From positions 1-35,741 of the forward strand of contig JAFTNU010000020.1 in NCBI GenBank assembly GCA_017451735.1: 35,741 nucleotides of DNA. The letters run 5' to 3'. Positions 33,090 through 35,741 of this stretch are shown here, in pieces (the first letter of the stretch is position 1; every line of letters starts with the position of its first letter). Under the pieces are notes generated by a model. That model did not search any database and was not told the DNA's origin. It saw only the letters and a program-made list of their open reading frames with translations. A program made the translations under genes and the position numbers. This stretch comes from Clostridia bacterium (GTDB taxonomy: Bacteria; Bacillota; Clostridia; Oscillospirales; CAG-272).

Positions 33090-33151
33090 GTATGGAGCGC
33101 ATAGGCTGAAAGGGAGGGTCCATATCAAATTTTTTTCGGAAGGTGTACATT

Positions 33152-34984
33152 ATGTGCGGAATCATTGGATTTACGGGGCAGAAAGCAGCATTGCCCGTGT
33201 TACTGGAGGGGCTGGCCACACTGGAATACAGAGGGTATGACTCGGCCGGTGTAGCCCTTTGGGCAGATGGTATTCAAACGGTCAAAGCAGAGGGACGCTT
33301 ATCCCGTCTTGTTGAAAAATTGAAGGAACGTAGCAGTCTTTCGTTGGCCACATGCGGTATCGGGCACACCAGATGGGCCACGCACGGCGCCCCGGCCGAT
33401 CGCAACGCCCATCCTCACGCCACCGAGCGTCTTGCACTTGTGCACAACGGAATCATCGAAAACTATGCCGAGATCGGCGCGTTCCTGATCGAAAGGGGTT
33501 ATACCTTTGCATCGGAGACCGATACCGAAACCGCCGCACTGCTGATCGATTGGTTCTACGGGGAGTACGGCGACCCGCAACAGGCCATCTTTTCCGCGCT
33601 TTCCATGCTGCGTGGGTCGTATGCCTTCGGCGTGATCTTTCGGGAATATCCCGAGCGGATCTATGCCGTTCGAAAGGACAGTCCCCTGATCGTTGCCGCC
33701 ACTGCGGAAGGCGGCATTCTTGCCTCGGATGTGCCCGCCGTGCTGGCGCATTCCAAAGAGTATTATCGCCCGGAGGAGGAGATCCTGTCGGTGCTGGAGC
33801 CCGGGCGCGTGCGCTTTTACACCCGGGACGGTGCGGAGATCGACCAGAAAACGGAGCGTGTGGATTGGGATGTGACCCAGGCGCAAAAGGGGGGATGGCC
33901 CCATTTCATGCTCAAGGAGATCCATGAAGAGCCCGAGGCTTTGCGCCGCACCGTAGGTCACTATCTGAAGGATGGACTGCCGTATTTTGGCGTACCCGCT
34001 TTGGATTCGCCCTTCCCGGTCCGATTCCATGCCGTTCATATCGTGGCCTGCGGCACCGCCATGCATGCAGGACTCATCGGGCGTCATGTCATTGAAAAAT
34101 GGGCACGCTTGCCTGTTTCGGTGGAGGTGGCCAGTGAATTCCGCTACCGTGATCCGATCCTTTGCAAGAATGATCTGGTCATCCTTTTATCACAATCGGG
34201 AGAGACGGCCGATACCCTGGCGGCGCTCCGCCACGCCAAGGCGAAGGGAATTTATACGCTTGCTATTGTCAATGTGGTGGGCTCCTCGGTAGCGCGTGAG
34301 GCCGATAGTGTGCTTTATACCCCCGCGGGCCCCGAGATCGCGGTGGCAAGCACCAAGGCATACAGCGTGCAATGCGCGGTGCTTTATCTTTTGGCCTTGC
34401 GTCTGGCACTCTTGCGCGGGCAGATCGGTGAGGAAGAGGGAAAGCAATTGTGCACGGATCTGTACACGACCGTGCCCGAGGCGGTGCGTGAGGTGCTTTC
34501 CGAAAGTGACCGTATTCGTGATTGTGCAAGGGAGCTGATTACGGCCGAGCACCTATTTTATATCGGGCGGGATGTAGATCACGCTTTGTGCACGGAGGGG
34601 TCACTGAAGCTCAAGGAGATCTCCTATATCCATAGCGAGGCGTACGCCGCAGGGGAGCTGAAGCACGGCACGATCTCGTTGATTGAAGAGGGGACACCTG
34701 TGATCGCGCTGATGACCGCCTCCCATGTGGCCGAGAAGACGCTGACCGGCATCCGCGAGGTCAGATCTCGGGGTGCACAGGTGATTCTGATCACGACGGA
34801 GGCAATTGCTCAAGGGCTGGAGATTCCTTGCGATAAGCAAATTCTTTTGCCGGAGATCGCAGAAAAATTCGCTCCGTTTCCGGCTGTTTGCGTCCTGCAG
34901 CTCTTAGCCTATCATGTGGCGGCGCTCAAGGGGGCGGATGTGGATAAACCCCGTAATCTGGCGAAATCGGTGACTGTAGAGTAA
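33152..34984 (+). CDS. glmS: Glutamine-fructose-6-phosphate aminotransferase (isomerizing)
   Basis: 610 aa. GlmS makes glucosamine-6-phosphate from fructose-6-phosphate and glutamine, the first step toward UDP-GlcNAc. The start is ATG 33152, giving MCGIIGF so that Cys2 becomes the N-terminal nucleophile; an upstream GTG is rejected for that reason, and GGAAGG lies eight bases before the ATG. The glutaminase domain (to about 240) has HTRWATHG and HNGIIENY. Two SIS domains follow with CGTAMHAG, LSQSGETADTL and ASTKAYSVQ, and the C-terminus ends in LAKSVTVE as is invariant in the family. The upstream gap of under 100 bases is too short for a glmS ribozyme, and none is seen. It is the biosynthetic counterpart of the MurQ/kinase salvage operon. 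Confidence 0.97.
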   Translation: MCGIIGFTGQKAALPVLLEGLATLEYRGYDSAGVALWADGIQTVKAEGRLSRLVEKLKERSSLSLATCGIGHTRWATHGAPADRNAHPHATERLALVHNGIIENYAEIGAFLIERGYTFASETDTETAALLIDWFYGEYGDPQQAIFSALSMLRGSYAFGVIFREYPERIYAVRKDSPLIVAATAEGGILASDVPAVLAHSKEYYRPEEEILSVLEPGRVRFYTRDGAEIDQKTERVDWDVTQAQKGGWPHFMLKEIHEEPEALRRTVGHYLKDGLPYFGVPALDSPFPVRFHAVHIVACGTAMHAGLIGRHVIEKWARLPVSVEVASEFRYRDPILCKNDLVILLSQSGETADTLAALRHAKAKGIYTLAIVNVVGSSVAREADSVLYTPAGPEIAVASTKAYSVQCAVLYLLALRLALLRGQIGEEEGKQLCTDLYTTVPEAVREVLSESDRIRDCARELITAEHLFYIGRDVDHALCTEGSLKLKEISYIHSEAYAAGELKHGTISLIEEGTPVIALMTASHVAEKTLTGIREVRSRGAQVILITTEAIAQGLEIPCDKQILLPEIAEKFAPFPAVCVLQLLAYHVAALKGADVDKPRNLAKSVTVE

Positions 34985-35050: not shown

Positions 35051-35686
35051 TTAACTTTCCAGTTGTCTGCCGAGGAACCCGGCTGCAGTCTGGATCAGCT
35101 TGCTTTCCACATCGGCGGCGGGGAGCTTTTTATCCTCTTTATCGCCATTGGCAAGCGAGACCACGCAGCCAACGATGTCACCCTCTGACAGAATCGGCAT
35201 GGCGCAACGCACCGTGTGAGATCCGCCGTCGGCAATGGCAGGCACGGTGTCCATACCCTCGCGCCAGACATATAGGTTGCGGGATTCGATGATCTTTTCC
35301 AGCTCGTCGGAAAGCGATTTGTCGGCGTACTCCTTGCGAGGAACGCCTGCGGTGGCAATGACCGCGTCGCGGTCGCAGATGATGACCGACAGCGCACAGG
35401 TCTTGTGCAGGGTTTCGGCATATTCGCCGGCGAAAACGCCTAGCTCGCCGATGGGGGAATATTTTTTGAAGATGACTTCACCTTCGCGGTCGGTATAAAT
35501 TTCAAGAGGGTCGCCGTTGCTGACAACACGGACGTCCAAAACCCTATTTTTGCGCTTTTCGGCGCTTTGAACGGCTACCGATGCCAAATTTTCTTCCGTC
35601 TCCCCACTTGCGCATTGCAACAGCTGATATACGTCATCCTTAAATAAGATCTCCACGCGATCCGTGTGTACCACGATGCGCTCCAC
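35051..35686 (-). pseudogene. spoVT: 3' part of spoVT in a chimeric frame with recombinase sequence
   Basis: From 35518 down to the stop, the translation is stage V sporulation protein T, a forespore AbrB-type regulator: the end of the AbrB domain (NGDPLEIYTDREGEVIFKKY), the linker SPIGELGVFAGEYAETL and a GAF-like domain ending in TAAGFLGRQLES. What should precede it, about 30 residues (a MKATGIVRRIDDLGR-type strand and helix), is absent. The same frame instead continues upstream into about 56 codons of unrelated sequence resembling a serine recombinase C-terminus (VERIVVHTDRVEI). The DNA-binding swapped-hairpin of AbrB is thus cut in half. No start codon with a ribosome site belongs to this fragment. 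Either spoVT is interrupted by an element that can excise, or it is dead. Confidence 0.85.
35505..35530. other. Putative attachment-site junction within spoVT
   Basis: Recognisable spoVT coding sequence begins at about 35518, in the codons for Asn-Gly-Asp-Pro, and stops abruptly on the higher-coordinate side. The crossover core should lie within or beside the shared bases GCAACGGCGACC (minus strand). The exact core needs the other junction, which is outside the window. Confidence 0.5.
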
Positions 35687-35741
35687 CAGTAGGCAAAGAT
35701 CCTTTCGATCCAGCGTTGGCTTTTCAATGATGTCCCGTAAA
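35519..35741 (-). mobile_element. 3' end of a large serine recombinase gene (partial, frameshifted)
   Basis: The minus strand first encodes LRDIIEKPTLDRK in the frame starting at 35741. After one extra A at about 35700 it continues in the next frame as LCLLVERIVVHTDRVEILFK. Joined, this is the typical C-terminal segment of large serine recombinases of Firmicutes (helix, then V-E-R-I-V-V-H and a DRVEI strand). The catalytic N-terminal domain and the rest of the element lie beyond the window. The coding sequence runs in frame into the spoVT 3' part with no stop between. The one-base shift is a real inactivating mutation or a sequencing error. Confidence 0.65.

Follow-up and report, generated by a model that had tools for sequence, protein, structure and literature searches.

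A widespread family of putative mobile elements with a large serine recombinase and one target site in the sporulation gene spoVT

Introduction

The sporulation rearrangements that we found described are cut in the mother cell, which dies, and the germ line is left untouched (PMC4191935). In C. difficile the skin element splits sigK; its large serine recombinase (LSR), CD1231, is sigma-A driven, and its directionality factor, CD1234, is under sigma-E and SpoIIID (PMC5025042). The phage SP-beta splits spsM of B. subtilis, has its core within inverted repeats and allows in-frame rejoining; it excises in the mother cell only and is retained in the spore genome, and the targets named in that account are mother-cell genes (PMC4191935). 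The gin element in the mother-cell gene gerE of B. cereus ATCC 10987 is non-phage, has a 9-bp core and three recombinase genes and uses an LSR with an extra factor, GirX; its excision is proven (PMC5595907).

Here we analyze an element in spoVT, first met at one end of a 35,741-nucleotide stretch of clostridial DNA, hereafter referred to as the window. It resembles skin in being an LSR element that splits a sporulation gene and in combining a sigma-A type LSR with a separate small factor under a sporulation sigma, the latter being a candidate only in our case. Unlike skin, it targets a forespore gene rather than mother-cell sigK, its candidate factor has sigma-F/G type rather than sigma-E promoters, its LSR frame runs into the target gene, and no phage-type genes were present among the ORFs scanned. 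The split gene, the core within inverted repeats and the in-frame rejoining are common to SP-beta, which differs in being a phage, in mother-cell excision and in its retention in the spore genome. With gin the element shares a similar size, a 9-bp core, the LSR plus extra factor (here a candidate) and, judged from the ORFs scanned, a non-phage nature, while the mother-cell target, the three recombinase genes and the proven excision set gin apart. Split gene, LSR, short core and restored gene, traits of the intervening elements skin, SP-beta, vfbin, vrin and gin, were all found in relatives; of the split gene and the LSR, the window itself shows only the 3′ spoVT half and the C-terminus, respectively. 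No element in spoVT was described in the open-access titles and abstract openings among the matches listed (preprints and most subscription papers lie outside this coverage), nor in those listed for the open-access literature on intervening elements and LSR sites.

Results

The spoVT locus of the window

On the minus strand, 35051-35740 is a single open frame, whose 229 codons extend from the contig end (35740) to a stop at 35051-35053. Residues 99-228 match SpoVT_C (Pfam, E 1e-37) and residues 73-228 match TIGR02851 from model position 27 (E 1.7e-46, under the model's cut-off). Residues 1-72, searched alone against Pfam and NCBIfam, matched no model; alignments place them in the C-terminal LSR part of the full-length LSR-SpoVT frames that relatives carry. 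One such frame (G075) aligns to query residues 3-228 with 60% identity, and another (G019) to residues 2-55 (E 1.9e-9) and 54-229. A preliminary description of the window had read the sequence before spoVT as an in-frame recombinase C-terminus, which the open frame and these alignments confirm. The 1-base frameshift that it reported in the recombinase remnant is absent, all 229 codons being open. It had put the junction at about 35518; the core actually lies at 35507-35515, a few bases away. At this point Gly-Asp-Pro, codons 31-33 of spoVT, forms an in-frame junction with the LSR C-terminus. The features of the locus are as follows.

35051..35515, minus strand: 3′ spoVT piece, codon 31 (Gly) to stop (SpoVT_C, E 1e-37; TIGR02851, E 1.7e-46)
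35507..35515, minus strand: attR core common to both ends, GGCGACCCT, the Gly-Asp-Pro codons (attachment-site comparison)
35511-35512, minus strand: inferred crossover dinucleotide GA (attachment-site comparison)
35516..35537, minus strand: attR element-side arm, akin to the arm consensus TGTCAATGTTATCAG, diverged in the window genome
35516..35740, minus strand: LSR C-terminal 75 codons, in frame with spoVT, cut at the contig end (alignment to relatives)
33143..34984, plus strand: glmS, convergent with spoVT, outside the element, marking the ordinary spoVT locus

glmS adjoins spoVT in three other loci as well (L022, L030, L055). Judged from its sequence, the window contains attR, the right end of an integrative element whose attachment site is spoVT codons 31-33. 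The contig (C3, 35741 bases) ends where the window ends, about 225 bp beyond the junction, and the far end of the element is therefore invisible here. Over 132 nt the element end is 99% identical to that of another genome (G004), while the two spoVT pieces are 77% identical. At the junctions of several interrupted genomes (L055-L058 and the right end of the window) contigs break some 100-230 bases away, as if one element end were common to several genomes or forms in the sample.

The window genome (G000) is a draft of 2.37 Mb in 81 contigs, 90.7% complete. No second SpoVT match was found in it, and thus no intact spoVT elsewhere, the counter-evidence that the preliminary description had proposed to look for. 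A 5′ spoVT piece was not found in this draft either, the lone match to the SpoVT N-terminus, the one AbrB-family match at C11:2154-2396, being rejected because it encodes an 80-residue AbrB-like protein. Among five Recombinase-domain and three Resolvase-domain matches in G000, none continues the LSR gene of the window. Truncated LSR genes that end contigs C58 and C72 were discarded as its missing part because their frames end in C-termini of their own. SpoIVA occurs twice (C22:48704-50176 and C71:371-1843), and the draft may therefore be mixed. This duplication, together with the closeness of the junction to the contig end, could be taken to mean that the junction is an assembly chimera; the probability of this is negligible, since the same junction recurs in independent assemblies, isolates included, and in a replicon titled complete, chromosome II of R. 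bicirculans.

LSR-SpoVT fusions in relatives

The 229-residue query found matches in 125 of 147 relatives. At least 13 of these 125 SpoVT-bearing genomes carry an in-frame LSR-SpoVT fusion, with frames of 720-808 codons in G019, G075, G057, G038, G076, G146, G116 and G129 and frames cut by contig ends in G000, G004, G002, G015 and G051. Most matches in the remaining relatives, whose rows were not all translated, begin at about residue 73, as expected of intact spoVT, and the site is intact in most relatives. Four fused frames carry Resolvase, Recombinase, Zn_ribbon_recom and SpoVT_C in one protein. An extra match in G064 turned out to be an unrelated enzyme-like frame.

A profile of the LSR part (A1) was used to collect 80 loci, the best 80 of 493 candidates, and 75 of these 80 run in frame into SpoVT. 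Two of the 75 (L125 and L141) are identical DNA; both come from one MAG, in which two contigs share 21,767 identical bases, the interrupted spoVT included, probably through duplication of a contig. The five unfused loci are L117 (contig end), L136, L152 (inverted), L159 (tandem or circle junction) and L190 (other sequence); the genome of L136 has an intact spoVT elsewhere (L209). The 75 also comprise records that bear no MAG label, among them R. bicirculans 80/3, R. flavefaciens 007c, ATCC 19208 and YRD2003, A. massiliensis AT3, Flavonifractor sp. An100 and Ruminococcus sp. Marseille-P6503. Within the genus to which R. flavefaciens 007c belongs, where fusions were judged by match extent and frame length, the SpoVT query matches 105 of 125 genomes; 23 genomes have frames of at least 668 codons, and in five more, whose frames are shorter, the match extends into the LSR part.

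RISVD and the zinc cysteines are kept in all 76 full-length fused LSRs (selected for an LSR part longer than 520 residues). The frame is single and open in the 76 loci, and the SpoVT C-terminal part of fused loci, 145-155 residues long, is intact. Such integrity, with Resolvase to SpoVT_C conserved within one protein, is what one would expect if the recombinase-SpoVT protein were itself functional and the element immobile. We consider such domestication improbable: the AbrB half, needed for DNA binding, is missing, near-identical LSRs lie beside SpoVT pieces that are 50-60% identical, the site is intact in most relatives, and both the attP symmetry and the LSR tails described below are kept.

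Matches were found in 385 phage records; among the matches listed the best two, at 53% and 50% identity, are short unannotated human-faecal contigs, and the rest are at or below 34%. None of the matches listed for 334 plasmid records exceeds 31% identity. IMG/VR yielded 20 loci, four of them close, of which three run on into SpoVT and the fourth stops at the core.

Both ends of the element

The layout in relatives is a 5′ spoVT piece with the first 33 codons of the gene, an element of 8-57 kb, and an LSR frame that runs through the attachment site into 3′ spoVT. The 5′ piece, MKATGIVRRIDDLGRVVIPKEIRRTMRIREGDP, followed by foreign sequence, was found in 10 of the 13 interrupted genomes (not in G000, G116 and G129) and in 29 of 35 further genomes (not in the other six). 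These pieces are cut after Gly-Asp in 28 of 29 cases, the exception being the intact L209. In 12 genomes both spoVT halves lie on one contig in the same orientation, 8.0-57.3 kb apart from core to core. The spans, taken from left-core and right-core coordinates on contigs matched by length, are given below; the larger ones may hold nested elements.

G057: 8.0 kb
Ruminococcus MAG G170: 11.4 kb
Ruminococcus MAG G161: 11.6 kb
A. massiliensis: 14.1 kb
R. flavefaciens ATCC 19208: 18.2 kb
R. bicirculans: 20.2 kb
G156: 20.3 kb
G019: 20.5 kb
G164: 23.9 kb
G157: 33.6 kb
R. flavefaciens 007c: 54.3 kb
G172: 57.3 kb

When the flanks were joined in silico at GGN-GA-YCCN, SpoVT was in frame in all six genomes tried. 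The relatives that show both ends thus bear out the skin-like interruption of spoVT proposed in the preliminary description. The truncated AbrB domain, which had been held against activity, does not count that way: it is cut exactly at the attachment site and restored in frame once the flanks are joined. At the protein level 29 of the 36 5′ pieces are identical though synonymous sites are saturated, an identity that recent insertion and continued use would both produce. The pN/pS of the 3′ pieces (medians for interrupted versus intact 0.56 vs 0.25, and 0.44 vs 0.085 in another comparison) was uninformative, synonymous sites being saturated and the compared sets different.

Two kinds of unusual arrangement were seen. 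In G154 (L231, C11:55001-75000; L152) the whole element of about 12.7 kb is inverted between the spoVT halves, its recombinase end adjoining the 5′ piece and its other end the 3′ piece. Two contigs carry two successive spoVT 5′ pieces (L098 on G146 C15 and L099/L100 on G075 C51; 10.5 and 15.3 kb apart). Their homology extends slightly upstream of the start codon, and the first junction in G075 looks decayed, which suggests that older elements came with a spoVT 5′ end of their own and that a second insertion took place later.

Attachment site and recombinase tail

The core GGNGAYCCN was present in the 36 genomes with both ends. attL and attR differ at core position 3 in eight of these 36 genomes and at position 6 in five. 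Genomes G002 and G051 have the same element ends and the same attR position 3 but differ at attL position 3, which must therefore be host DNA. The pattern at positions 3 and 6 thus places the exchange between them, at GA. Joined element ends (attP) form an inverted repeat whose best centre is G|A, with a 36-genome mean of 0.75 complementary positions against 0.11-0.43 elsewhere.

In the circle form the LSR frame would continue for another 24-43 residues as a tail, which a stop codon closes in 32 of 36 genomes. The tails have a common pattern around F-C-x-A-M-x-x-L-A-K-R, with modest conservation (differences at codon positions 1, 2 and 3 of 0.52, 0.43 and 0.65). Once the element is integrated, SpoVT from codon 34 onwards stands in place of this tail.

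The attP pattern, searched with zero mismatches allowed, was present in none of 394 genomes and in no viral contig. A single attP-type junction was seen, in L159 (1438-11776), where a 5′ spoVT piece and the element are followed by a recombinase whose frame continues into a second left end where the contig stops; the junction differs in one base from the left end of the same contig and is thus a tandem copy or a circle. A stretch resembling the attP arm (ACAATGTTGTCA) lies across the -10 box of the LSR in some elements, L132 and L129 among them. Self-regulation of the LSR through this stretch is possible but weakly supported: 19 of 74 upstream regions pass the 1% threshold, with strands and positions mixed.

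Mobility and cargo

Across 76 fused loci, identity between LSRs is loosely related to identity between the SpoVT pieces (Spearman 0.34, 2850 pairs). In the pair L120/L121 the LSRs are identical (1.00) and the SpoVT pieces 60% identical, whereas in L131/L132 the SpoVT pieces are 99% identical and the LSRs 70%. Since the relationships of LSRs and hosts disagree, insertion is recurrent; the sequences of relatives show that one spot in spoVT has been struck repeatedly by different elements.

Cargo was scanned in 28 ORFs from four elements, a subset of their ORFs. The A. massiliensis element encodes type I restriction-modification, GmrSD, RhuM and a MobA/VirD2 relaxase. The R. bicirculans element carries VWA, PP2C, a kinase, Bro-N, a tyrosine integrase and part of a Mutator transposase, and that of G019 carries Fic, an IrrE-type domain, PIN, a tyrosine integrase, Band 7 and a 2561-residue TPR/TIR/LRR protein. 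An ABC ATPase was found in the G057 element. No phage structural or packaging genes were found in the 28 ORFs, and no relaxase among the scanned ORFs of the three elements other than that of A. massiliensis.

Integrative and mobilisable elements with serine integrases combine a site-specific LSR with mixed cargo and horizontal spread. The spoVT elements share these properties, including, in A. massiliensis, a relaxase, and may possibly be nothing but ordinary elements of this kind, although we rate this well short of probable. In that case spoVT would be a very conserved landing site, sporulation would be blocked in the lineage concerned, and excision would be tied to transfer, not to sporulation. 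The strong disagreement between LSR and host, the varied defence-like cargo with a relaxase in one of four scanned elements and the failure to see an excised form (attP pattern in 0/394 genomes and 0 viral contigs) agree with this account. That a relaxase was seen in one of four scanned elements, and that an LSR-linked gene has forespore-type promoters (see below), sets the spoVT elements apart from integrative and mobilisable elements.

A small protein encoded upstream of the LSR

All-against-all comparison of small ORFs upstream of the LSR revealed one dominant family, encoded on the same strand in 58 of 70 elements. Its profile matched within 1.2 kb upstream of the LSR in 62 of 82 loci and, on the same strand, further up in 11 more (73/82); nine of the 82 loci, some of which are duplicates, had no match in the stretch examined. 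The protein has about 65-105 residues, with W, G, L and L invariant in 36 aligned sequences. Searches gave no match in Pfam or PHROG, none better than E 0.078 in NCBIfam and none better than E 0.12 in PDB. By its sequence, it is a new family and a candidate directionality factor. Of 196 genomes from the family to which the window belongs, 10 have it, and G000 is not among them. A relative of the small protein (L301, G020 C15:127-312) lies inside a 234-codon open frame at a contig start; spoVT is intact in this genome.

Promoters of spoVT, the LSR and the small protein

The promoter motifs scanned were B. subtilis consensus sequences. Upstream of spoVT a sigma-G type match is present in 40 of 71 cases, compared to 5% of shuffles; relaxed sigma-F matches occur in 34/71 and strict ones in 0/71. 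Thus, the location of the target in a mother-cell gene, a trait of the intervening elements that we found described though no part of their definition, does not extend to spoVT. In C. difficile, spoVT is under sigma-F and sigma-G, and heat-resistant spores need SpoVT (PMC3789822).

Upstream of the LSR, sigma-A matches were found in 20 of 55 non-redundant sequences (0.4 expected), while the forespore motifs were at background in the same 55: sigma-F 0 vs 0.3 expected, relaxed sigma-F 1 vs 1.1, sigma-G 2 vs 1.6. The small ORF presents another picture. The sigma-F consensus lies 14-45 nt before its start in 7 of 51 cases (0/716 control genes), and sigma-G in 6/51 (11/716). Relaxed sigma-F was found in 22/51 against 6/716, with a motif that was relaxed after the sequences had been inspected. 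Either sigma-F in its relaxed form or sigma-G precedes 25 of the 51 small ORFs and 16 of the 716 controls; 26 of 51 have neither. Sigma-K was not enriched upstream of the small ORF. Mean sigma-E scores are above shuffles in all three sets (z 9.1 for spoVT, 3.7 for the LSR and 3.0 for the small ORF), with zero matches at one mismatch or fewer, and the sigma assignments are therefore not clean.

The spoVT promoter bears on vegetative phase variation of spoVT independent of sporulation stage, which a site-specific and in principle reversible recombination, and the inverted element of G154, might bring to mind. Because the promoter is forespore-type, vegetative switching would not show; moreover, LSR excision normally needs a directionality factor (PMC5025042, PMC5595907). 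We regard such variation as highly improbable.

Sporulation genes of the hosts

SpoIVA is above the cut-off in 31 of 33 genomes examined, including 25 of the 27 interrupted ones. With the sigma-G model no match reaches the cut-off and 10 of 14 control genomes match too, so that only the strength of a match is informative: 30 of 33 genomes give a strong match (E 1e-101 or better), G051 and G156 a weak one and G057 a split one. G051 and G156 are both interrupted and have neither SpoIVA nor a strong sigma-G match. These two would fit an ordinary integrative element that blocks sporulation. The SpoIVA kept in 25 of 27 interrupted genomes and the finding that, in roughly half of the elements, the LSR-linked small protein has a forespore-type promoter speak against that account, and so do the identical 5′ protein pieces (29 of 36, synonymous sites saturated), except that recent insertion would give the same.

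Discussion

The window holds the right end of a member of a widespread mobile family with one target site. Of the readings considered, a forespore developmental switch is the best supported, although not demonstrated: the LSR would split spoVT, and the small protein, under sigma-F/G, would drive an excision that restores it. We lean towards this reading with some reserve. The preliminary description had also suggested a developmental switch; the promoters of the candidate directionality factor speak for this, while no excision was observed and the switch itself is our reading of the arrangement.

In a vegetative cell, the LSR made from its sigma-A type promoter would integrate the circle (attP x attB) and keep spoVT split. 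In the forespore, the small protein of the element (65-105 residues), with its sigma-F/G type promoter, would act as directionality factor and turn the LSR to excision (attL x attR), restoring spoVT, itself a forespore gene. Because the forespore chromosome is the inherited one, the circle would then have to travel with the spore and re-integrate during outgrowth; otherwise it would be lost, and transfer would have to bring it back. Each move would swap the LSR C-terminus: the circle form would end in a tail of about 25 residues and the integrated form in the SpoVT C-terminal domain, and the two forms may therefore differ in activity. A full germ-line switch, with excision in the forespore, the circle in the spore, re-integration after germination and, as the LSR frame includes the attachment site, a swap of the C-terminus between short tail and SpoVT sensor domain that helps to set the direction of recombination, is a tentative extension that we would not call likely.

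Against a forespore switch, an element that excised there would forfeit its position on the chromosome of the spore. The absence of the attP pattern from all 394 genomes and the roughly half of small ORFs that have neither promoter also argue against it, as do the unclean sigma assignments, the two interrupted genomes that lack SpoIVA and the genomes in which the 5′ piece was not found.

As a large recurrent family in a forespore gene, the spoVT elements break the mother-cell-only pattern of the rearrangements that we found in print. If the germ-line switch were true, sporulation would involve rearranging the very chromosome that is passed on. This raises the question whether the spore chromosome is inherited without the element, and how the element would return.

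Gut Clostridia with sporulation genes are often recorded as non-sporulating. Given that SpoVT is required in C. difficile, at least 28 of the 105 Ruminococcus-group genomes with SpoVT may not sporulate, or may do so only via excision. The interruption of spoVT thus bears on the non-sporulating records of gut Clostridia that carry sporulation genes.
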